Source: Methylomusa anaerophila
Lineage (GTDB): Bacteria; Bacillota; Negativicutes; Sporomusales; Sporomusaceae
NCBI RefSeq assembly: GCF_003966895.1
Contig: NZ_AP018449.1
Location: 3,365,501 to 3,429,500 of the forward strand
Reading direction: 5' to 3'
DNA length: 64,000 nt
Shown here: positions 3,191-55,027 of the stretch, piece by piece
Layout of the letters: each line of letters begins with the position of its first letter
How positions within the stretch are numbered: position 1 is the first letter of the stretch
The notes under the pieces: generated by a model
Told to the model about the DNA's origin: nothing
Database searches by the model: none
What the model saw: the letters and a program-made list of their open reading frames with translations, nothing else
Made by a program: the position numbers and the translations under genes

Positions 3191-6100
3191 ATGAACCTGA
3201 AAGACAAAAGGAAATGTATCCTCGCGGTATTTCTTCTGGCAGTGCTGCTGGTGACCAGCGGCTTTTATATTGCCTATCGCCTGCATCCTGAACTGTTCAT
3301 AGGGCAGAACGATATCATCACCCGCGGGGAATTTGCCGCGGAACTGGCAAAGGAGCTGAAGCTGGACACCACCGGATCGGAAAAAGACACGCCCAGCTTT
3401 CCCGACATCGACGGACATTGGGCGGAGAAGTACATCGAGGCCCTCGTTGACACCGGCATCATTGACCCTGCCGATTACCCGGACGGCTTCAAACCCGACG
3501 AGCCCATCACCCGCGCCGAGATCATTAAAATGATGGTGCGGGCCAAGGGCCAGGACGAGGAAGCGAAAAACACCCAAGGACACAGCGGCTACGATGACCA
3601 GTCGGATATCGCGGACGATAACAAGGGCTATGTCATTGTTGGAAAGGAGGATGGTATCATCGGGGATACGGAGGATAACAAGCTCCATCCGAACGACCCG
3701 GTGACCAAAGGAGAAGCCGATGACATGTTTGACAAGGCCGACCCGAAACCAGCAACACCGACACCATCCCCAACAACCCCGGCAACCGATACCACTACGC
3801 CGACACCGATACCGACGCCTACCGACCCGGATAAGGAACAGCCGACACCAACCCCGTCTCCGACCCCGACACCGACACCCACGCCGGGCGGTGGTTCAGG
3901 CGGCGGCTCCTATTATGTCCCGGATGCACAGGTGCGGTTTGACCTGCCCGAAACTGCACACACCGATACTGAGATCAAGGTGATGCCCGTGTGGAAATAT
4001 ATGCAGAGCTTCACCTGGACAATGACGAAAACAGCGGTGGACGGCTCTGAACAGCCGGTGGAGTTGGCAGACGCCGTCACCGGCAGCTTGGGACTGGAGG
4101 GCGGTACAATCCAGTTTAAGGAGGAAGGCAAATACACTCTCACGGCAACGGCGAAAAACGCCAGAGGAAAAGAAACGGTCTTAAGCAAAACTGTGACGGT
4201 CTATCCCGTGATTGACCTGACCTTTGACCTGCCGGAAACTACTCACACTGACAAGTCGGTCACCCTTACCTTCCTGCTGGAAAAGCTATACGACCACGAC
4301 ATCATGTGGACGGCAGAAAAGGACAGAGAAGCCGTCCAGACTACAGACATACTGGATGGTACGCTGGGGAATGACGGCGGCATCTTTGTTTTCAAGACCA
4401 AGGGCGGCTATAAGCTGACCGCCACCATAACCGATGAAACCGGGCGCATTTTTACGCATACAGAGAGCACCAAGGTTTACCCGATAGTCGGTATTGCTTT
4501 CACGCTGCCCGCTGCTTCCCATACGGACAAAACCGTGGAGGTAGCCACCACGCTGACTGAAAACGGCGGCCTGTCTGTAGTGTGGAGCCTGACCAAGAAT
4601 GGTGAAGCCGCTGTGCTATCCGACGAGCTGGAGGGCGCCCTGACCGATGCGGGAGGAAACATCCGGTTCAAGGACAAGGGCGTGTACATGCTGACCGGAA
4701 CCCTCACCGATGAAACCGGCCGTACCTTCGAAGCCTCACAGACCGTCACGGTCTACCCTGTGGGTTCCGTTGGTTTCTATCTGCCGGAGATCGCGCATAC
4801 CGATACGAGTGTTCTTGTAAAGGCAACATTCCAGAATCTTGGGACTGCCGAAATCCAGTGGTCGCTGGCAAAAGACGGCGAAGCCGTACCTGTTGCCGAC
4901 TGCATCGAAGGAACGCTCACGGATACAAACAGCACCATCAGGCTTAAGGAAAAGGGCGAATATGTGCTGAAAGCCGCCTTTGCCGACCCTGCAGGCAGAA
5001 CCTACAGCTATACCGCACCCATCAAGGTCTATCCTGTACCCAGCATCACTTACAAGCTGCCGCAAACCGCCCACACCGATACCGCTGTTTCTGTGATTCC
5101 AGAAACCTTGGAATTAGGGAACTTAAAAGTGGAATGGCTGTTGGAGAACGGCTTCGGATTCCAGGATCTTGCGACCTACATCAACGGGACTCTGGACAAC
5201 AACGGCGGAACCATCCGCTTTAAACACGCCGGAACCTATGAGCTCATTGCAAGGATCACCGATGAAACCGGGCGTGTGTTCCTCTATGAGGATGGCGGTA
5301 AGATCGAAGTCCTGCCGGTTCTGAATATTTCCTTCGAGCTGCCGGCATCGACGCATACCGACCGCACCGTTGACCTTCGGACCCGCGGCAACAACAACGT
5401 GCTACCGGTGGAATGGACGCTCACAAAGGATGGCAAGCCGGCAGAGCTCACCGACGCGCTGGAGGGCAGCCTGAACGCTTACGGCGGCAAAATCCAGTTC
5501 AAGGATGTTGGAGAATACACCCTGACGGCCTCCATGACGGACGCCCTGGGCCGGGTGTTCTCTTACAGCTCCTCCACCACAGTCTATCCCATCCCGTCCG
5601 TTCTGCTGAATTTCCCGCAGACCTGGTATGTCGGAGAAGCAGGAACGGTCAGCGTCAGCGGTACCGATCTGGATAACCTCACCGCAGACTGGACGGTCAT
5701 TCAGGGCGACGGCGGTACACAGCCCTATAACATTTATACCTCCGGAACCCTGACGAAAACAGGCGGGACTATAACCTTCCCGACAAAAGGACAATACACG
5801 CTGATTCTCACAATGACAGACCCCACCGGCCGCACCTTTGTACGAAGCCAGAGCTTTATCGTCTTTCCCATCCCAACGATGTCAATCAGCCTCCCGCAGA
5901 CCTGGCATGCCGGCGAAGCAGGAACGGTCAGCATCAGCGGAACCGATCTAGAAAACCTCACCGAGGGATGGACTATTAAGCAAGGAAATGGAGATACAAA
6001 GCCTTATTCCACTTACGCTGCAGGCACTTTGACCAAGGAGGGCGGCACGATCACCTTCCCGGCAAAGGGGCAGTATGAACTTATCCTCACGATGACGGAT

Positions 6101-38379: not shown

Positions 38380-41300
38380 ATGCCAAGGATTATCTTCAAA
38401 TGCGGTTATATTAAAAACGATCCGGAGCATGTAAAGAACCTGATAGAGTACGTGGGGACGCGGGAAGGTGTAGAAAAGCTTACACAGTACAGACGGAACC
38501 AACCTGCTACCCCAAAGCAGATAGAGCGCATCGGGGACATTCTCACCCGCTTTCCTGATTCCAAAAGCCTCTTTGAATATGAGGACTATCAAAATAAGCC
38601 GACTCTCGAAAATGCATCGGCATTTATTACCGCAGCCATTGACCATAATCTGGATCAGCTGACTCATCAGGAGGTCTACGTCAACTACATTGCCACCCGT
38701 CCCCGCGCGGAAAAGCTGGGCAGCCACGGCCTGTTTACAGATGAGGATGAGCCGCTGGTGCTGTCTAAGGTGGCCGAAAAAGTGGCGGAGCATACCGGAA
38801 ACATCTGGACACCTATCATTTCCATGAGACGAGAGGACGCGGCCCGGCTGGGATACGATAACGCTTCCGCATGGATAGCCCTCCTCCGCCAACAACGCAA
38901 TATATTCGCCGAGCAGATGAAAATCGCTCCGGAAAACCTGCGCTGGTATGCGGCTTTTCACGACGAGAGCCATCATCCGCACTGCCATATGATCATTTAC
39001 TCGGTTGATCCCCGCAAGGGCTATGTTACAAAGCCAGCAATTGAAAACATGCGGAGCAGTCTGGCACGGGAAATCTTTCAGCAGGACTTACTTCAAATCT
39101 ACTCGGAGCAGACGATCCAGCGCAACACGTTGACGGAGCAGAGCCGGAATACCCTGCGGGAACTTCTGGAACAGATGGGTACAGGAACTTGCGAGAACCC
39201 GGTGATTGAGGATCTGATGTCCAGACTGGCGGAGAAACTAAAGCATACCACAGGAAAAAAGCAATTTGGCTACCTACAAGTCCCGCTGAAGGAACTGGTC
39301 AATCAGATTGTGGATGAGCTGGCAAAGGACGAGCGCGTCGCAGCTGCTTATGCCAAGTGGTATGAGATGCACAATGAGGTTCTGCGTACCTATAAGGACA
39401 AACTGCCCGAACCTCTTCCACTCTCACAGCAAAAGGAATTCAAGCAGATCAAGAACATGGTGATTGCCGAGGCGGTAGACCTCGGCAATCACCATCTCAC
39501 CTTTGAAGGCGATGAAAACGCTGAACCAACCTACGAGGAAGAAACCGCTGCCGGGGATGACGAGCCGGAGCAGCTCTTGGCAGAGCCGGAAGCTGTGTTT
39601 CATGAAGTAGCGGAAGATCAGGATTACAATCTTTCTGATGCCCAAGACCACGCATCCTCATCGAATTCCGATAGCATAGAACCCGGCAAACCGCATATAG
39701 CATGGAGCGACCGATATAAAGGAGCCCGAACCTATCTCTATAGCAGCGACGATACGGAGCCGGACTTTGAACAGGCCCTCCGGTTGTTTCTGGAGGAAGC
39801 CGAGGATGGCAACGCTCTCGCCATGCACGACCTCGGCAGGATGTATGCGGATGGGCTTGGCATGGAGATCGATGCAGATACCGCTTTTTATTGGTATGAG
39901 AAAGCTCTCTTTGCGTTTATGGATATTGAAGCAGAAAAAGAAAACCGGTACATAGAGTACCGCATCGGCAAAATGCATGCGGCAGGACTCGGCACGATAC
40001 AGGACTATGAGGAAGCGGCTGGCTGGTTTGATACGGCAGTTTCAAAAAATCACAAGTACGCACAGTATTCGCTTGCCGGCCTGTACTACCGGGGGCAGGG
40101 TGTTGAGCAGGATTACCAGACCGCCTTCGAACTATACCGCCGATCTGCAAGACAGAATGTTCCCTATGCCCATTATGAACTGGCAAAGATGTACCGGGAC
40201 GGTATAGGTACCGCAAGAAATATTGAAGAAGCCGAACTGCACTTTGAGGAAGCCTTCTTCGGGTTTAAGAGACTGGAGGAACAGAGCCACGACGATAAGC
40301 TCCAATACCGCCTGGGTCAGATGCTGTACACCGGCACTGGCACGGAGAAGGATGCGGAAGCCGCCATCGTCTATTTTGAAAAAGCTGCCCGGCTGGGCAA
40401 TGTTCACGCCCAATACATGCTTGGTAAGTTATATCTGGACGCGGACAGCGGTCATGAGAATATCGAACAGGCCATCCTATGGCTGACAAAGGCTGCGGAC
40501 AATGGCAATGCTCTCGCACAATACGCCCTCGGAAAGTTGTACCGGGACGGCACCCAAGTAGATAAGGATATCCAGAAAGCCATCGCTCTGTTTACACTCT
40601 CGGCCGAACAGGATAATTCCTTCGCGGCGTATGCCCTTGGCAAGCTGTATCTTACCGGAACGGAAGTACCCAAAGACATAGAAGCCACAGTAAGATGGCT
40701 GACACATTCAGCTGAGCTTGGCAACCAGTTTGCCCAATATGCACTGGCAAAGCTATATCTCACCGGCGAGGATGTGGCAAGAGACATCCAAAAGGCACTG
40801 GAGCTGTTCCTGAAATCAGCGGAGCAAGGCAATCAGTATGCGCAGTATCAGTTAGGCCGGCTCTACCTGAAGAGCGAACATGTCCCCAAGGATGCCAAGG
40901 CTGCTGTCAAATGGCTGACCGCCTCCGCAGAGCAGGACAATCAATATGCACAGTATCAGCTAGGCAAGCTCTACCTGCTGGGCGAGGATGTACCAAAGGA
41001 TGTGGAAACTGCCATCAGATGGCTGACCGCCTCCGCGGAGCAGGGCAACCAGTATGCCCAATACACCCTTGGGAAGCTCTACCTGGTGGGCAAAGATGTT
41101 CACCGTGACCGGGAAAATGCTGTACGCTGGCTTACCTTATCCGCTGAGCAAGGAAATGTCTATGCGCAATTTTTCTTAGACCATCTGGACTCCTTTCATG
41201 ATCCTTCTCCTTTTCTTGCAGCAACAAGGCTCCTGCATCATCTGAGTCGAATATTCCGTGAAGAAGAACGAAGGCTTCCAGGCGGACCAGGTATGCAGGT

Positions 41301-41391
41301 TGAGAGTAAGCTGCGGCGAAAGATCAGGGAGAAAAAGATTGCCCAGGGCCATGCCCCGGACGACCATGAGCAAAGGCTTACAACTTATTAA
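38380..41391 (+). CDS. MobP-type relaxase fused to twelve Sel1 repeats
   Basis: The 1,003-residue protein begins with a relaxase domain (residues about 1-330) with the metal-binding HHPHCHMIIYS motif (His 198, 199, 201, 203), as in MobP/MobL-type relaxases of Bacillota; the catalytic Tyr was not pinned down. An acidic linker follows (about 380-440). From about residue 477 to 940 there are twelve 36-residue Sel1-type repeats (A-Q-Y-x-L-G-K-L-Y pattern). The enzyme nicks oriT and pilots the strand. Sel1 repeats are protein-protein scaffolds, so the tail may bind the coupling protein or cargo. Confidence 0.9.
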   Translation: MPRIIFKCGYIKNDPEHVKNLIEYVGTREGVEKLTQYRRNQPATPKQIERIGDILTRFPDSKSLFEYEDYQNKPTLENASAFITAAIDHNLDQLTHQEVYVNYIATRPRAEKLGSHGLFTDEDEPLVLSKVAEKVAEHTGNIWTPIISMRREDAARLGYDNASAWIALLRQQRNIFAEQMKIAPENLRWYAAFHDESHHPHCHMIIYSVDPRKGYVTKPAIENMRSSLAREIFQQDLLQIYSEQTIQRNTLTEQSRNTLRELLEQMGTGTCENPVIEDLMSRLAEKLKHTTGKKQFGYLQVPLKELVNQIVDELAKDERVAAAYAKWYEMHNEVLRTYKDKLPEPLPLSQQKEFKQIKNMVIAEAVDLGNHHLTFEGDENAEPTYEEETAAGDDEPEQLLAEPEAVFHEVAEDQDYNLSDAQDHASSSNSDSIEPGKPHIAWSDRYKGARTYLYSSDDTEPDFEQALRLFLEEAEDGNALAMHDLGRMYADGLGMEIDADTAFYWYEKALFAFMDIEAEKENRYIEYRIGKMHAAGLGTIQDYEEAAGWFDTAVSKNHKYAQYSLAGLYYRGQGVEQDYQTAFELYRRSARQNVPYAHYELAKMYRDGIGTARNIEEAELHFEEAFFGFKRLEEQSHDDKLQYRLGQMLYTGTGTEKDAEAAIVYFEKAARLGNVHAQYMLGKLYLDADSGHENIEQAILWLTKAADNGNALAQYALGKLYRDGTQVDKDIQKAIALFTLSAEQDNSFAAYALGKLYLTGTEVPKDIEATVRWLTHSAELGNQFAQYALAKLYLTGEDVARDIQKALELFLKSAEQGNQYAQYQLGRLYLKSEHVPKDAKAAVKWLTASAEQDNQYAQYQLGKLYLLGEDVPKDVETAIRWLTASAEQGNQYAQYTLGKLYLVGKDVHRDRENAVRWLTLSAEQGNVYAQFFLDHLDSFHDPSPFLAATRLLHHLSRIFREEERRLPGGPGMQVESKLRRKIREKKIAQGHAPDDHEQRLTTY

Positions 41392-47660: not shown

Positions 47661-47821
47661 GAACAATAAATATCGACCATATTTTACAAAATTTACTATT
47701 ACATATATTGTAAAATTAATATAGCGGCCAGAATTTCGTTGTAATCGCTATTTTATTGTTGCTTTTAAAAGAAAGGAGATAATTTTTTAAGTCTGAAATT
47801 TACAAAAAAACAAATAAAGCG

Positions 47822-47917
47822 ATAAGGGCAAACCTGTTAAAAGACAGCGACGCAAAGCCAAGGGTCTAAGGTACTGCTGACAGCAGCACTATGATTGCCT
47901 GGTTACCGAACTGATTA
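47822..47917 (+). ncRNA. Cyclic-di-GMP-I (GEMM-I) riboswitch
   Basis: The segment shows the conserved order of the GEMM-I aptamer: GGGCAAACC, GCGACGCAAAGCCAAGGG with TCTAAGG, a variable hairpin (TGCTG-ACAG-CAGCA), then TGATTGCCTGGTTACCGAAC. These are the ligand-binding core and the tetraloop/receptor of the class I c-di-GMP riboswitch. A strong intrinsic terminator begins ten bases later, so control is probably by transcription termination. Downstream come two short frames, another terminator and then the sigma-like gene at 48295. Confidence 0.92.
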
Positions 47918-48294: not shown

Positions 48295-48750
48295 ATGGAA
48301 GAAGGCAAGAAACGAACTAATTATAGGAAGCTATACCCTGGCGTAAAAGAAGAAATCTATGAGGTGCTGGAGCGATCTGATCGGAAAATCAAGTACAGTA
48401 GATATGATCTGAAAACGGAAAGATGCAACATTGATTATGAAAAAGCAACGGTTACATACATTCCAAGCCGCGAAGATTCCCTCGATAGGCTTGAAGAACA
48501 GAATTACCAGTTTTCAGATCAAAGCGAAGGCGTGGAAGATCGCGCAATCAAAGACACTCTGATTGCTGATATGAAGTCTTGCATAAAGCATCTTTCAAAG
48601 GAAGATCAAGCTTTAATTACCTATATCTTTTTCAATGGGGGAACCCAGCAAGGCTATGGGGAATTGATTGGCATTACGCAACGTGGCGTTGGCAAGCGCC
48701 AGGAAAAAATCCTTGAAAAGCTCAGAAAAATGATGGGCATAGATATTTAA
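48295..48750 (+). CDS. Sigma-70 region-4-like protein of the recombination module
   Basis: GGAGG precedes ATG 48295. The 151-residue protein has a charged N-terminal half and, near residues 100-150, LSKEDQALITYIFFNGGTQQ and ELIGITQRGVGKRQEKILEK, the helix-turn-helix of sigma factor region 4. Region 2 is not recognisable, so it may be a partial or phage-like sigma regulator. Similar genes lie just upstream of recombinase genes in other Bacillota elements. Its position downstream of the c-di-GMP riboswitch suggests a possible link of that signal with excision. Confidence 0.7.
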   Translation: MEEGKKRTNYRKLYPGVKEEIYEVLERSDRKIKYSRYDLKTERCNIDYEKATVTYIPSREDSLDRLEEQNYQFSDQSEGVEDRAIKDTLIADMKSCIKHLSKEDQALITYIFFNGGTQQGYGELIGITQRGVGKRQEKILEKLRKMMGIDI

Positions 48751-49295: not shown

Positions 49296-49676
49296 ATGAG
49301 CAACAAATCACTGAATGAATTGCTGGAAAAAGACCTGGTCGTCGGCTATGTCTATGGTTATGACGGAACGCGTCAGGTCTTTTATTTCGAGAACTCCCCT
49401 GCAAACATTGCAAATTTTATCATGCTCCATAGCGAAAACACAGATAAAATCGTTCTGACGGATCAGTTGGACAGGTTAATCCTGAACACCTTTGGGGAAT
49501 TCATCAACAGCTGTCCCGATCAGGCATTCCTGGAGGAAGTCAAGAAAGAGCTGGTACCCATGCAGCTGGGGGAAAAAGAACCGTCTGAGATACTGTCTGC
49601 CAGCGAGGATGAATTTGCCAAACTCTTGTACGAGGAAGATCGGCAAGTAACGGAAGCTGAGCTGCGGATGTTGTAG
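49296..49676 (+). CDS. Conserved small protein of the recombinase cluster
   Basis: ATG 49296 follows AAGGAGG; another ATG at 49291 runs straight into a stop. The 126-residue soluble protein is acidic (LNELLEKDLVVGYVYGYDGT, IVLTDQLDRLILNTFGEFIN) and helical at the end. It has no recognisable domain. It is co-oriented and close to the resolvase-like gene at 49715, so a role in excision or its control is likely from context only. Confidence 0.6.
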   Translation: MSNKSLNELLEKDLVVGYVYGYDGTRQVFYFENSPANIANFIMLHSENTDKIVLTDQLDRLILNTFGEFINSCPDQAFLEEVKKELVPMQLGEKEPSEILSASEDEFAKLLYEEDRQVTEAELRML

Positions 49677-49714: not shown

Positions 49715-50086
49715 ATGAAAGAACAATTACGCGCTTGGCTCTATTGCCGGATTGATGCTCCGGAAGATACGCATGGCACATTGAAAAGTCAGAAGGAAGA
49801 GCTCTATGATTATGCGGAGCAGATGGGCTTTGTTGTTACTGGCTATGCAGAAGATCTTGGAAGTGGTCTAAATTTAAGCCGCTCCGGTCTGCAGGAGACT
49901 GAGAAGGCGGCAAATGAAAGTCAAATGGATGTATTGGTCGTGAAAAGGCTTGACCGTATCGGACGGGATACAGCACAAGTGCTGGAATTTCTCCGGGGAC
50001 TGGACCAGCTGGGCATTGCGATTTATTCCCCACTGGAGGGCGAAATCCGTCTGGAACAGCAGGGTCTGGACTTCTTTCTGCGTTAG
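49715..50086 (+). CDS. Resolvase-domain-only protein lacking the catalytic serine
   Basis: GGAGG precedes ATG 49715. The 123-residue protein is a serine-recombinase catalytic domain without any DNA-binding part: AWLYCRID, DLGSGLNLSRSGLQETEKAA, and MDVLVVKRLDRIGRD. The nucleophile position of the family motif Y-C-R-V-S is Asp 14 here (YCRID), while the arginines of KRLDRIGRD are kept. It should not cut DNA. It could dimerise with the full-length recombinases and act as a control factor, or be a relic. Confidence 0.75.
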   Translation: MKEQLRAWLYCRIDAPEDTHGTLKSQKEELYDYAEQMGFVVTGYAEDLGSGLNLSRSGLQETEKAANESQMDVLVVKRLDRIGRDTAQVLEFLRGLDQLGIAIYSPLEGEIRLEQQGLDFFLR

Positions 50087-50101
50087 GAAGGAGGGGCTGT
50101 C

Positions 50102-50266
50102 ATGTCAAGAACTCAGGCATCCAATGAGGTGCAGTATAAAATCTCCATAAAATTCCTGAACATCCTGCTTCGCAACGGTATTATAACTTCTAATGAATAC
50201 AAAAAAATCGACGATTTGAACAGGCAAACCTTCACGCCTGAACTATCTCAAGTATATGCGCAATAA
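50102..50266 (+). CDS. SHOCT-like small protein
   Basis: AAGGAGGGG precedes ATG 50102, 15 bases after the resolvase-like gene. The 54-residue product has ISIKFLNILLRNGIITSNEY followed by KKIDDLN, the pattern of a SHOCT (short C-terminal) domain, in which a helix pair carries L-L-x-x-G-I-I-T-x-x-E-Y/F. Such mini-genes are common before serine recombinase genes of Clostridia elements. Function not established. Confidence 0.65.
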   Translation: MSRTQASNEVQYKISIKFLNILLRNGIITSNEYKKIDDLNRQTFTPELSQVYAQ

Positions 50267-50341
50267 CACTAGCTTTCCGGGAAATTGTGTGGTAGTGTGT
50301 GTTGCTAACAGGAGGACAAAAATAAGAAAGGAGAAGATCAT

Positions 50342-51967
50342 ATGGCAAAAAATGTACAAATTATTCGTCCTGTTAAGCAGCAAGTTATCCAGCAGTTACA
50401 GCCTAAAAAGCGGGTCTGCGCCTACTGCAGAGTCAGTACCGATTCCCGCGAACAGCACAATTCCTTCTCGGTGCAGACGGACTATTATAAGAATTTCATT
50501 GAGAGCCAGGAAGATTGGGAGTTCGCCGGAATTTACGCTGACGAGGCACGAAGCGGCACAAAACTGCAAAAGAGAGATGACTTTTTACGGATGATGAAAG
50601 ACTGCGAGGACGGGAAGATCGATATGGTTATTACCAAATCCGTAACCCGCTTTGCAAGAAACACAGTAGACAGCATCCAGGCAATCCGCAGGCTGAAGGA
50701 GCTTGGAATTGGCGTCTACTTTGAAAAGGAGCACATCAACAGCCTGTCGGAAAAAAGCGAACAGATGCTGACCATTTTAAGCTCACTGGCACAGGGAGAA
50801 GCCGAAAGCATCTCCACCAACAATAAATGGGCGGTTATGAAGCGTTTCAATGATGGTACATTCACCATAAGCTGCCCAGCCTACGGTTACACCAAGGATG
50901 AGAACGGTGAGCTGGTCATAAAGGAGGAAGAAGCCTCGGTTGTACGCCGGATTTTCCGGGACTACCTGCACGGGAAAGGAACCTACCTGATTGCCAAGGA
51001 GCTGACCGATGAAGGCTTCCCTACAATTCGCTCCGGTGAAAAATGGAGCGACGGAGTGGTCAGGGAGCTTCTTTTAAACCCCGTTTACTCCGGCAATCTG
51101 CTTTTACAGAAAACCTATACGACTGACGTACTTCCCTTCAAGCGAAAGCATAACAGAGGGCAAGTGCGTCAGTATTTTATTGAGGACAATCACGAACCAC
51201 TCATAAAACCCGAACAGGCAGAGGCAGTCAGGGAGATCATGGAATACCGAAGCAAACAGCATGGTGTGGATTCTGAAAAATGTCAAAACCGTTATGGTTT
51301 TAGTAGCAAAATTCTCTGTGGTGAATGCGGAAGCATTTTCCGCCGTCAGAAAATTTACATCGGTAAACCCTACGAAAAAATCCAATGGTGCTGCAACCAG
51401 CATATTGAAGATAAAACTAAGTGCGGTCAGAAGGCTGTCCGTGAAGATATCCTTCAATGCGACTTTATCCTCATGTGGAACAAGCTGATCAGCAATTATA
51501 CTGATATCCTGCTCCCCCTGCTTGAGGTGCTGAAAAAGATTCGGATGGATGAACGACAGGAACAGGAAATTGAAGACTGCAACAACAAAATTATGGAACT
51601 GACAGAGCAGGGACATATCCTGAGTCGGTTGATATCGAAGGGGTATGTGGAACCTGCTGTTTTTATAGAGCGCCAGAATGCCCTTGCCCTGGAGCTTACC
51701 GAAGCAAAGAAGAAAAGAAATCAACTTATGGATAACAACGGACTGGAGCAGGAGATCGCAGGAACAGAGCTTCTGCTGGAGCTCATCAAAAATAACACCG
51801 GCATCCTTGAAGCATACAGCGAGGACTTATTCTCCCAAGCGGTTGAGAATGTCATCATACGAAAAGACAAAATAACTTTCCGGCTGATCAACAAGCTGGA
51901 GCTGACAGAATCCATCGGAAAGGAGGAAGATCAGAATGGCACAGCGGCACATGCCCATCGGTTATAA
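50342..51967 (+). CDS. Large serine recombinase 1
   Basis: AAAGGAG precedes ATG 50342. The 541-residue protein has a resolvase domain with nucleophile Ser 32 in AYCRVSTDSREQ and ITKSVTRFARNT, a recombinase domain (GYTKDENGELVI ... SDGVVRELLLNPVYSGNLLL), a zinc ribbon (CGECGSIFRRQ ... WCCNQH), and a coiled coil (EQEIEDCNNKIMELTEQGHI). Length and order match TndX/TnpX-type recombinases that excise and integrate mobile elements. Its end overlaps the next gene by 32 bases in another frame. Confidence 0.92.
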   Translation: MAKNVQIIRPVKQQVIQQLQPKKRVCAYCRVSTDSREQHNSFSVQTDYYKNFIESQEDWEFAGIYADEARSGTKLQKRDDFLRMMKDCEDGKIDMVITKSVTRFARNTVDSIQAIRRLKELGIGVYFEKEHINSLSEKSEQMLTILSSLAQGEAESISTNNKWAVMKRFNDGTFTISCPAYGYTKDENGELVIKEEEASVVRRIFRDYLHGKGTYLIAKELTDEGFPTIRSGEKWSDGVVRELLLNPVYSGNLLLQKTYTTDVLPFKRKHNRGQVRQYFIEDNHEPLIKPEQAEAVREIMEYRSKQHGVDSEKCQNRYGFSSKILCGECGSIFRRQKIYIGKPYEKIQWCCNQHIEDKTKCGQKAVREDILQCDFILMWNKLISNYTDILLPLLEVLKKIRMDERQEQEIEDCNNKIMELTEQGHILSRLISKGYVEPAVFIERQNALALELTEAKKKRNQLMDNNGLEQEIAGTELLLELIKNNTGILEAYSEDLFSQAVENVIIRKDKITFRLINKLELTESIGKEEDQNGTAAHAHRL

Positions 51968-52835
51968 ACTGGTGGATGGAAAAATTCAACTGGACGATCC
52001 CAAGGCAAATGTCGTAAGACATATTTTTCAGGAGTATGCATCCGGAGCTTCCCTTCTGGACATAGCCAAAGCGATGACGGCGGCCGGACTCCCAAACGCC
52101 AACAATCAGCCCAAATGGTACCATGGAACGGTCAGCAGTATATTGGATAACGTAAAATATCAGGGCGACGAGTTCTATCCCCCGCTCATCAACAAAGAAT
52201 TGTTTGAAAAGGTCCAGCGCCGTCGAGGTGAACGATGCGAAAAGCTCGGACGGAACCTACAGCTTAACAGCGCAAGCCGTCAATCGGTTTTTTCCGGTAT
52301 CCTACGCTGTGGAGAATGCGGCGACGTTTACCGAAAATATGCAGAGCATTGCGGAAAGCCAACAAAACGGACCTTCTGGAAATGCAAGAGATATATCCAC
52401 AAGAACAAGGTTTGCTGTTGTAACAGTTTTCTCACAGATGAACAGATCAGATCGGCATTCCTTTCAGTAGCAAATCGAATCATCGCAAACAAAAAATGTC
52501 TGGATCGAATTCCGAAAAAGGAACCCGCCGTAAATAACTTTGAATATATCAAGCTGGATAAAAAAATAAAGGAGCTGGAAGCAGAAGGACAGTATTCGTC
52601 CAAAGAGCTTCCGGCTCTTATTTTTGAACGGGCAAAAGCCTTTTACAAAACATCTCGTGTCGATGATGCCGCCCATAATACTGAAAAGATGAGGCAAGCA
52701 TTTTCCGACCGGATGCCTCTCCATGGATTCGACGAAGAACTGTTTCAGACAGTCATCCGACAGATCACAGTACATAAGGATGAGAAATTGACCTTCGAGT
52801 TTATCAACGGGCTGACGCTGGAGGCCAAATACTGA
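51936..52835 (+). CDS. Recombinase-like protein lacking the catalytic domain
   Basis: GGAGGAAG precedes ATG 51936, inside the end of recombinase 1. The 299-residue product begins directly in the recombinase domain (HMPIGYKLVDGKIQLDDPKA, YHGTVSSILDNVKYQGDEFY), then a zinc ribbon (RCGECGDVYRKYAEHC, CKRYIHKNKVC) and a C-terminal helical part. The resolvase domain is absent and there is no trace of it upstream, where the sequence codes recombinase 1. It should bind DNA at att-like sites without cutting, and may direct or regulate the active enzymes. Confidence 0.82.
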   Translation: MAQRHMPIGYKLVDGKIQLDDPKANVVRHIFQEYASGASLLDIAKAMTAAGLPNANNQPKWYHGTVSSILDNVKYQGDEFYPPLINKELFEKVQRRRGERCEKLGRNLQLNSASRQSVFSGILRCGECGDVYRKYAEHCGKPTKRTFWKCKRYIHKNKVCCCNSFLTDEQIRSAFLSVANRIIANKKCLDRIPKKEPAVNNFEYIKLDKKIKELEAEGQYSSKELPALIFERAKAFYKTSRVDDAAHNTEKMRQAFSDRMPLHGFDEELFQTVIRQITVHKDEKLTFEFINGLTLEAKY

Positions 52836-52871
52836 TTTTTATAAATCACTGAAGAAAGGATGGAACGAAAA

Positions 52872-53036
52872 ATGGCTAAGTCAAATAATACGCAAAAAAA
52901 CGAAAATCCTTTAAAAGCTGTTTTTTATATGAGGGTAGGAAGTATAGAACAATTAAGCCCTGAAGCGCAGAAAGAATACCTAGGCAAAAAAACAGAAGAA
53001 ATGAAAAAGGAAGAATTCAGGAAAGGAGATAACTAA
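52872..53036 (+). CDS. Mini-gene with a resolvase-like RVGSIEQ motif
   Basis: GAAAGGATGG precedes ATG 52872. The 54-residue product contains AVFYMRVGSIEQLSPEAQKE, which resembles the catalytic-motif region of serine recombinases (YxRVSTxxQ), with Gly at the nucleophile position, and nothing else of the domain. It ends one base before recombinase 2. It could be a conserved regulatory peptide or the remnant of a duplicated recombinase. Confidence 0.5.
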   Translation: MAKSNNTQKNENPLKAVFYMRVGSIEQLSPEAQKEYLGKKTEEMKKEEFRKGDN

Positions 53037-53037
53037 G

Positions 53038-54687
53038 ATGCAGACTGCGGCAGCGAAAAAAAAGAATATATCGATTATCCCCCCACAGCCGGAATACGAC
53101 CGGAGTATCAAGGTACAGTTTAAAGCCCTGCGGGTCGCTGCCTACTGTCGCGTCAGCACTTTGCTGGAACAGCAGGAAGGCAGCTATGAAGCTCAGATAT
53201 CCTACTATACTGAGAAGATAAAGAGCAATCCCAATTGGAAGATGGCCGGCATTTATGCTGATGACGGAAAATCCGCAACCAACACGAAAAAACGTGATGA
53301 TTTCAACGCTATGATTGAGGACTGCCTCGCAGGGAAGATCGATATGGTCATCACAAAATCCGTCAGCCGCTTCGCCAGAAATACAGTGGACTGCCTCCAG
53401 AATATCCGTAAACTCAAAGAGAAGAATGTCGCCATTTTCTTCGAAAAAGAGGGAGTAAACACTCTGGAGGGGTCAGGAGAACTGCTGATCACAATTTTAA
53501 GCAGCCAGGCGCAGGAGGAAAGCCGGAACCTGAGTGAAAACACCCGCTGGGGTCTGGTCAGACGCTTCGAGAACGGAATCATGTCAATTAACCACAACAA
53601 ATTTATGGGATACACGAAAGATGAAAACGGAGATCTGGTCATCGTACCGGAGGAAGCTGAAATAGTCAGACGAATTTTCCGCCTCTTCCTCGAAGGAAGC
53701 AGCTATGTCCAGATCGCGAAGATTTTAGAGAGCGAGGGTATACTTACCGTAACCGGCAAAAAGGAGTGGTGCCCCAGCGTGATCGACCAGATGCTCGAAA
53801 ATGAAAAGTACATGGGTGATGCCCTTCTTCAGAAGACCTACACGGTAGATTTCCTCACAAAAAAACGAGTGAAAAACCAGGGCATCGTTCAGCAGTATTA
53901 CATACAGGACAATCATGAAGCGATTATCCCAAAAGAGCTTTTTTACCGGGTACAGGAGGAAAAGGCCAGGAGGGCAAGCCTGTGCAAATCTGCGGCAACA
54001 AGGCGGGCTAAAAAAGAGCAAAGCAAGTACAGCTCGAAATACTCTCTATCCGACATTATGATCTGCAAGGAATGCGGACAACCATACCGCAGACAGGTCT
54101 GGTCAAAGAACGGTCAGAAAAGCGCCGTATGGCGTTGCGAAAACCGCCTGAAGAACGGAACCAAACACTGCAAACACTCTCCAACGCTGAAAGAGGACGT
54201 TTTGAATGAAGCAATTATGACAGCCATTAACAACGTCGTTGAAAACCGGGGTGATTTTGTAGGCGCCTTCCGGGAAAACGTAATACAGGTAATCGGGAGT
54301 TATTCCACCAAGAATGTACCCACCGAATATGACGAACAGATCACAAAACTGCAAGGTGAAATGCTGACTTTGATTGAGGAAAACGCAAAGATGGGTTCGA
54401 TCACCGAGGATTTTGACGAACAATATCATAAGATTGCGGAGCAGATCAAGGAGCTCAAGCAAAAGAAACTGGATAGCATCCGAGATCAAAAACGGGCTGC
54501 AGATTTTCAGCAGAGGGTCAGCGATATGGACACCTGCCTGAAAAAGGTATCCTGTTCGGTTCGGGACTTTGATGACGATCTGGTGCGCAGACTTCTGCAA
54601 GGAGTTAAAGTTATAAACGAGGATACACTTGAAATACAGTTTAAGTCAGGGATCGTCATGAAGCAGAGAATACCCTACTGCAACTAA
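53038..54687 (+). CDS. Large serine recombinase 2
   Basis: AAAGGAGAT precedes ATG 53038. The 549-residue protein has nucleophile Ser 40 in AAYCRVSTLLEQQ, ITKSVSRFARNT, the recombinase domain (GYTKDENGDLVIVPEEAEIV), a zinc ribbon (CKECGQPYRRQ ... WRCENR) and a coiled coil (DEQITKLQGEMLTLIEENAK). It is the last gene of the element. Element-integrating large serine recombinases are usually encoded next to the attachment site, so the right end of the ICE should lie within about 100 bp of its stop. Whether it or recombinase 1 does integration is unknown. Confidence 0.92.
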   Translation: MQTAAAKKKNISIIPPQPEYDRSIKVQFKALRVAAYCRVSTLLEQQEGSYEAQISYYTEKIKSNPNWKMAGIYADDGKSATNTKKRDDFNAMIEDCLAGKIDMVITKSVSRFARNTVDCLQNIRKLKEKNVAIFFEKEGVNTLEGSGELLITILSSQAQEESRNLSENTRWGLVRRFENGIMSINHNKFMGYTKDENGDLVIVPEEAEIVRRIFRLFLEGSSYVQIAKILESEGILTVTGKKEWCPSVIDQMLENEKYMGDALLQKTYTVDFLTKKRVKNQGIVQQYYIQDNHEAIIPKELFYRVQEEKARRASLCKSAATRRAKKEQSKYSSKYSLSDIMICKECGQPYRRQVWSKNGQKSAVWRCENRLKNGTKHCKHSPTLKEDVLNEAIMTAINNVVENRGDFVGAFRENVIQVIGSYSTKNVPTEYDEQITKLQGEMLTLIEENAKMGSITEDFDEQYHKIAEQIKELKQKKLDSIRDQKRAADFQQRVSDMDTCLKKVSCSVRDFDDDLVRRLLQGVKVINEDTLEIQFKSGIVMKQRIPYCN

Positions 54688-55027
54688 CATGTTATGTCCA
54701 ACATAGAGGCAGAAACGATAAAAATTTTTGCATAGGGGTTATCCTTTTCTAAAAACAGATGATGTTTTGACCACTTTTTTGTGTAGCTCCAAAATTATCG
54801 GATTATTATCTATCATCAATATCCAGTTTTTCACAAGATATACGTCTTTTTTAAACCATCCTTTGCATAAGCGCAAGGGGTTAATAAACGGCTAAAAGCC
54901 AATATTTAGACAAAATTCCCGTGCATAACTGTTTACTGAATATGATGTTCACAATAAATAACGAAAACCTGCCTCAAGGGCAGGTTTTGTTCAATATCTT
55001 TAATCAGATTCTACAGGGTATCAATAA
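54688..55027. other. Right-end region of the ICE and junction with flanking DNA
   Basis: No gene is visible. ATGTT-ATGTCC-AACAT (54689-54704), an interrupted palindrome right after the recombinase gene, is a candidate attachment core, since large serine recombinases act on short imperfect palindromes. Beyond it the sequence is A+T-rich. A terminator-like hairpin follows at 54964-54988. Confidence 0.35.
54964..54988. terminator. Bidirectional terminator-like hairpin
   Basis: AAAACCTGCC / GGCAGGTTTT with a 5-nt loop, A-rich on one side and T-rich on the other, so it can act on both strands. Confidence 0.8.

Follow-up and report, generated by a model that had tools for sequence, protein, structure and literature searches.

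A Conserved Recombinase Protein without a Catalytic Domain between Two Large Serine Recombinases, a Probable Non-Cutting Subunit of an Integration Complex

INTRODUCTION

In research and in applications, large serine recombinases (LSRs) are treated as single enzymes that suffice on their own. A stretch of 64,000 nucleotides (the window) from the 4.78-Mb chromosome of Methylomusa anaerophila raises the question of whether some of them have a partner that does not cut. At about 49.3 to 54.7 kb of the window, one strand encodes, in this order, an unassigned protein, a resolvase-domain-only (NTD-only) protein, a SHOCT_2 protein, the large serine recombinase LSR1, a middle protein devoid of the catalytic domain, a mini-protein, and a second large serine recombinase, LSR2. 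Tandem and triple serine recombinases are already known (PMC4701971, PMC4260502, PMC5595907). The window also encodes a relaxase (MobP3/MobL) and a VirB4-like ATPase, as identified with Pfam and NCBIfam, and both fit an integrative conjugative element (ICE). Is the middle protein a working part of the recombination machinery of such an element, a regulator of it, or the remains of a third recombinase?

RESULTS

Gene map and domain content

All five recombinase-related frames described in the initial annotation are open, and RBS-like sequences were seen by inspection ahead of the window genes. Two frames encode complete large serine recombinases, as annotated: LSR1 (541 aa; 50342-51967, + strand) and LSR2 (549 aa; 53038-54687, + strand; PF00239 with E 1.3e-32) both have the Resolvase, Recombinase, and Zn_ribbon_recom domains (PF00239, PF07508, and PF13408) and the catalytic serine in the motif YCRVS. 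The middle protein (299 aa; 51936-52835, + strand), whose gene shares its first 32 nt with the end of LSR1, matches only PF07508 (E 8.9e-15) and PF13408 (E 3.9e-8) above cut-off. It has no PF00239 match above cut-off, and without a catalytic N-terminal resolvase domain it falls outside the large serine recombinases; its earlier description as a DNA-binding-only protein agrees with the domains found, the binding itself being predicted from them. The NTD-only protein (123 aa; 49715-50086, + strand) had been annotated as a resolvase-only protein with Asp in place of the nucleophile, and indeed PF00239 (E 2.2e-18) is its only domain and YCRID its motif. The match covers positions 3 to 102 of the 145 of the profile, so that the domain end is missing; with no Ser nucleophile, an incomplete catalytic domain, and no DNA-binding domain, the protein is not a serine resolvase/invertase. 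The mini-protein, which contains the motif YMRVGSIEQ, has 58 aa (52860-53036, + strand), or the annotated 54 aa if it starts at 52872. A gene missing from the earlier description of the set encodes the SHOCT_2 protein (54 aa; 50102-50266, + strand; PF20612 with E 2.1e-18; phrog_2996). For the unassigned protein (126 aa; 49296-49676, + strand), searches of Pfam, NCBIfam, and PHROGs with a threshold of E 0.1 gave no family.

Upstream of the module lie a c-di-GMP-I riboswitch (Rfam; 47817-47910) and a pemK RNA (Rfam RF02913; 49033-49112, + strand; 66.6 bits versus a gathering score of 34.8). An Rfam scan of 12 related loci found the riboswitch in 7 and the pemK RNA in 11, and control of the operon by c-di-GMP and RNA is suggested. 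Between the two RNAs, a sigma-70-like protein is encoded (48295-48750) that scores just under the cut-off of a sigma70-ECF superfamily model; its relatives are found upstream of many related modules. The relaxase (38380-41391) carries a Sel1 repeat array of 12 stretches after the relaxase domain. At the other side of the module, the identity between the window and its closest relative (L011) stops a few bases past LSR2, near 54706-54712 as read by eye, and this break sits inside a terminator-like hairpin of the relatives. A comparison of the left flank of the element with relatives revealed no convincing matching end, and no att site is claimed.

Conservation of the module and selection

The core order SHOCT-LSR1-middle-LSR2, with a middle gene without catalytic domain, is shared by the window, L011, L012, L018, and others. 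The closest copy, Sinanaerobacter L011, has every module gene at 87 to 94% protein identity. Desulfosporosinus L012 has the NTD-only, SHOCT, LSR1, middle, and LSR2 genes, without the mini-gene, and its middle protein is 41% identical to that of the window; L018, a viral-contig locus, has all module genes, the mini-gene included. A scan with the middle protein alignment gave 21 loci, and the core order is present in those with a long enough contig except L043, which has a truncated middle gene and in which no LSR2 was detected. Some of the named loci lie on common contigs (L021/L026, L023/L028, and L043/L061). In L025, a second, broken LSR2-like gene (3485-5234) directly follows LSR2, as would be seen after the integration of a further element.

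Where dN/dS was computable between the window, L011, and L018, it stayed under 0.35 in all genes and pairs: about 0.145 to 0.150 for the middle gene, 0.12 to 0.35 for the NTD-only gene, 0.11 to 0.16 for the SHOCT gene, 0.08 to 0.11 for LSR1, 0.05 to 0.07 for LSR2, and about 0.2 to 0.3 for the mini-gene, the latter from very few sites. The middle protein is under purifying selection, and all module genes are kept as proteins. Together, the same gene order in relatives and these low ratios make the arrangement more than chance.

Frequency of the middle gene next to LSR1

Of 550 LSR1 relatives matched on viral contigs, the best 80 were taken irrespective of a middle gene, and the next gene is a domain-less recombinase in 77 of these 80. 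Inspection revealed a domain-less gene also in L111, behind a broken LSR1 frame, which gives 78 of 80; this number includes L061, where only 69 aa are left of the middle protein and LSR2 is missing downstream. LSR2 comes next in 74 of the 77 loci with a middle gene in this best-80 sample, and two of the other three stop at the contig end, the third being L061. A SHOCT gene lies upstream of LSR1 in 76 of the same 77; the SHOCT_2 protein is a member of the conserved core. The two matches without a middle gene are a lone LSR (L078) and an LSR that is preceded by another one and lies at a contig end (L134).

A second, independent sample was drawn from whole genomes. In 21 of 398 genomes, 25 LSR1-like matches were found, the window itself being one of them, and the domain-less gene follows directly in 22, half of them with a short form (11) and half with a long form (11) of the middle protein. 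The domain-less middle protein is a fixed component of the module. In L183 and L184, which belong to one genus, the LSR1-like match is followed by another LSR, and L175, also without a middle gene, is itself the second of two LSRs. The first LSR of L183 groups with the LSR1 sequences in a tree and the second with the LSR2 sequences, and inspection of the surrounding DNA revealed no middle gene near the pair; pairs without a middle gene are therefore a real neighboring type. Such pairs (L183/L184, L134, and L175) also indicate that some pairs of this kind can do without the middle protein. G382, one of the two genomes of L183 and L184 (G382 and G531), has several further LSR-like matches.

Lineage and forms of the middle protein

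To describe the middle protein itself, we used a set of 97 distinct loci selected for a domain-less gene after LSR1, which by its selection cannot give the frequency of the arrangement. Clustering of the proteins gave 45 groups at 70% identity and 16 groups at 50%. A tree built from the recombinase domain that the middle protein has in common with the LSRs places all 97 middle proteins in one clade (support 0.939), apart from LSR1 and LSR2; the 74 LSR2 sequences are likewise one clade (0.961), and 91 of 97 LSR1 sequences fall together with a low support of 0.333. Since the middle proteins are one clade, the loss of the catalytic domain is most simply explained by one old event. The serine motif is matched by LSR1 in 94 of the 97 loci and by LSR2 in 94; YxRxS is found in none of the 97 middle proteins. 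At consensus level, LSR1 and LSR2 share a stretch of about 29 alignment columns behind the Y.GD motif of the recombinase domain that is missing from both forms of the middle protein.

The short form (67 of 97) has about 137 aa and no zinc domain. The long form (30 of 97) has a zinc ribbon, with the four-Cys pattern complete in 23 of the 30. Short proteins match PHROG 7701, named "DNA invertase," end to end (E 1.1e-51 to 3.5e-62), and the window's protein matches it with E 1.5e-23; the window form differs from PHROG 7701 in its additional zinc ribbon and helical C-terminus. The name is misleading, because Pfam scans of three short middle proteins found no catalytic domain.

In all 97 loci, the middle gene starts between 32 nt before and 19 nt after the LSR1 stop. 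A programmed frameshift or readthrough that joins LSR1 to the middle protein was considered and rejected on three grounds: the two genes have no fixed relative frame (49, 28, and 20 of 97), different stop codons end LSR1 where a start codon comes directly after it (TAG in 24, TAA in 22, and TGA in 2), and an RBS-like sequence precedes the middle gene in 70 of 92 loci.

Predicted structure of the middle protein

The AlphaFold2 model of the middle protein (mean pLDDT 84.0, pTM 0.55) finds as its best PDB match the C-terminal domain of LI integrase on DNA (4kis, E 1.9e-11). The TM-score is only 0.30, probably because of domain placement. Helices are predicted at residues 202-216, 224-239, and 245-256, where LSRs have their coiled coil; the long coiled-coil helical insertion of LI integrase is short in the middle protein. 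Aligned by eye by way of the intermediates L088 and L098, the short-form tail QAEYaYSLIESE falls on the middle one of the three long-form helices. According to PMC3783163, the coiled coil of LI integrase is dispensable for DNA binding and controls which sites recombine and in which direction, and an LI integrase that keeps its catalytic domain and is without the zinc domain binds DNA about 25-fold more weakly. By analogy with this loss, a lone short middle protein, which has no zinc domain, may bind DNA poorly. Recent PDB entries of serine integrases complexed with directionality factors were also among the listed structure matches.

The NTD-only protein and the mini-protein

In 22 loci with an NTD-only protein, the nucleophile position is occupied by Asp in 19, Asn in 1 (L158), Ala in 2 (L160 and L161), and Ser in none; these loci include the near-duplicates L156/L157, L160/L161, and L143/L144. 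For 17 of the 22, the window included, no search for the YCRID motif was involved (14 Asp, 1 Asn, and 2 Ala), one of the profiles used there having been built from Asp sequences. One or more of the arginines with a catalytic role in the serine recombinase family are changed too in L022, L024, and L031. The E helix, the usual dimer helix, forms the end of the resolvase domain. The PF00239 match ends at profile position 101 to 117 of 145 in all seven NTD-only proteins scanned, and because it stops before the site of this helix, pairing of the Asp protein through it is unlikely, as judged from sequence.

The gene is patchy: it is absent from several relatives for which upstream DNA is present (L032, L034, L035, L038, and L055), and besides accompanying the present module it occurs with a second kind of recombinase set. 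In L143, L144, L160, and L161, three full serine recombinases in tandem are followed by a resolvase-domain-only protein without Ser. The unassigned protein, a separate gene in the window, is fused to the NTD-only protein in one frame of 235 to 240 aa in six relatives (L021, L023, L027, L029, L052, and L053), and in L034 and L037 its relative lies after LSR2. An AlphaFold2 model of one fusion (mean pLDDT 79.3) matches serine recombinase catalytic domains. A natural guess is that the NTD-only protein is regulatory. L022 was considered as a link between the NTD-only protein and a tyrosine integrase; the opposite strand of that contig, however, holds two LSR-like frames, and therefore no conclusion on such a link is drawn.

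Relatives of the mini-protein are found only in L011 and L018, which makes three loci with the window, and the protein is optional in the module. Pfam gave no match for it, and PHROGs gave a single weak one, to integrases (E 0.016). The resemblance of the mini-protein to a recombinase N-terminus is weak and not significant, either pairwise (BLASTP against LSR2, E 0.11) or by profile (hhalign against the LSR1s, probability 0.3).

DISCUSSION

In sum, our data point toward an integration/excision module of an integrative conjugative element in which the middle protein probably is a non-catalytic subunit of a two-recombinase complex, a reading that we hold with moderate confidence. LSR1 and LSR2, which both keep the catalytic serine, would act together on one site pair, like CcrA and CcrB on an asymmetric site. 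The middle protein would be an old, dedicated third member of the module whose catalytic domain was lost before the present module lineages split. It retains the DNA-reading recombinase domain, and most likely it would join the complex of LSR1, LSR2, and DNA as a non-cutting subunit that helps to choose or hold the sites and so biases synapsis or excision. The NTD-only protein and the mini-protein may then be optional modulators. Because the same arrangement is widespread among related elements and phages, we regard the non-cutting protein as probably functional rather than as the product of a decayed gene. The initial annotation had called the partial genes probably used. This is well supported for the middle protein, which nearly all relatives have in its place between the two LSRs, and moderately so for the Asp protein, with a conserved non-Ser resolvase domain on the one side and its absence from several relatives on the other; for the mini-protein, known from three loci, the support is weak. 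Absence or breakage of the partial genes in relatives, raised at the same time as what would speak against their use, does not apply to the middle protein and applies in part to the other two. That non-cutting subunits able to pair or to bind could set the direction of the reaction remains a hypothesis, if a fair one.

The middle protein could instead act as a recombination directionality factor, its short helical hairpin binding LSR1 or LSR2 and switching integration to excision. We consider this rather unlikely as a whole, but it agrees with the helical segment modeled where LSRs have their coiled coil, with the match by eye of the short-form tail to the middle helix of the long form, and with the part that the coiled coil of LI integrase plays in site choice and direction (PMC3783163). 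However, the middle gene lies between both integrases and starts at the LSR1 stop, and it would therefore be made together with them, which would give a two-way reaction unless it is regulated. A protein that keeps the recombinase domain and has no catalytic domain might also bind att or promoter sites as a repressor or competitor and so lower the activity or expression of the recombinases, and the zinc ribbon pattern, complete in most long forms (23 of 30), would suit such a protein. This role seems to us quite unlikely, since a mere inhibitor would not usually be retained with so few exceptions between the two LSR genes across proteins as divergent as these (16 clusters at 50% identity among 97).

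We think it very unlikely that the partial genes are recombinase duplicates, whether in decay or of chance origin. The small size, weak homology, and restriction to three loci of the mini-protein, and the absence of the NTD-only gene from some relatives, are what decay would produce, but the frames of the middle and NTD-only genes are conserved with low dN/dS and the non-Ser residue of the NTD-only protein is kept in 22 loci; for the middle gene, decay is contradicted by the single clade of 97 proteins. The complementary domains of the NTD-only and domain-less proteins in one operon also bring to mind two cooperating halves of a split recombinase. This idea is hardly credible and was rejected on distribution and on the missing Ser: the middle gene occurs without the NTD-only gene in several loci with upstream DNA present (L032, L034, L035, L038, and L055), and the NTD-only protein, which has no Ser, is also found beside other recombinase sets (L143, L144, L160, and L161).

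Several known systems resemble the module. CcrA and CcrB of SCCmec are likewise two large serine recombinases in tandem, and the closest NCBIfam models to LSR1 and LSR2 are CcrB; however, the scores of 109.7 and 132 bits are far below the curated cut-off of 900 and do not place either protein in that family. The two LSRs of SCCmec collaborate on an asymmetric site (PMC4363357), and the pair, as far as described there, comes without a middle gene. Serine integrase triplets of streptococcal ICEs also consist of three adjacent recombinase genes at one ICE end and cluster in a tree by position; all of them have a catalytic domain with Ser (Ambroset et al. 2016, PMC4701971), whereas the middle one here has none. 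For the tandem resolvases of prophage Phi1207.3, cooperation of the gene products was proposed (PMC4260502). Among rum-type phages and plasmids, a Terrisporobacter phage (L049) has SHOCT-LSR1-middle-LSR2, and an S. suis phage (L048) and an Enterococcus plasmid (L051) have the C-terminal part of LSR1, the middle gene, and LSR2. The middle gene of Phi1207.3 and the rum-type elements is of the short form, in contrast to the long form of the window; in the rum-type elements it is annotated as "hypothetical protein," "DNA invertase," or "recombinase." GirC together with its directionality factor GirX sufficed in the gin element, which has three serine recombinases (PMC5595907), and this counts against our preferred explanation. 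In the open-licence literature at hand, mostly titles and the beginnings of abstracts, we recognized no paper on the middle gene as a conserved non-catalytic partner, and the available parts of PMC5704250 and PMC5357655 do not describe it as one.

A wider generalization is possible but doubtful: a widespread integrase type of Firmicutes elements and phages would consist of two cutting subunits and one obligate non-cutting, DNA-reading subunit that sets site pairing and direction, and a dead-site resolvase-domain protein would add control in some elements. If many LSRs work only with a non-cutting partner, the cloning of one gene would lead to false negatives. If the proposed role is true, the name "DNA invertase" of PHROG 7701 would be corrected, and the recombinase set would be a natural handle on direction and site choice, for which the pairs without a middle gene in the neighboring lineage are a ready comparison.
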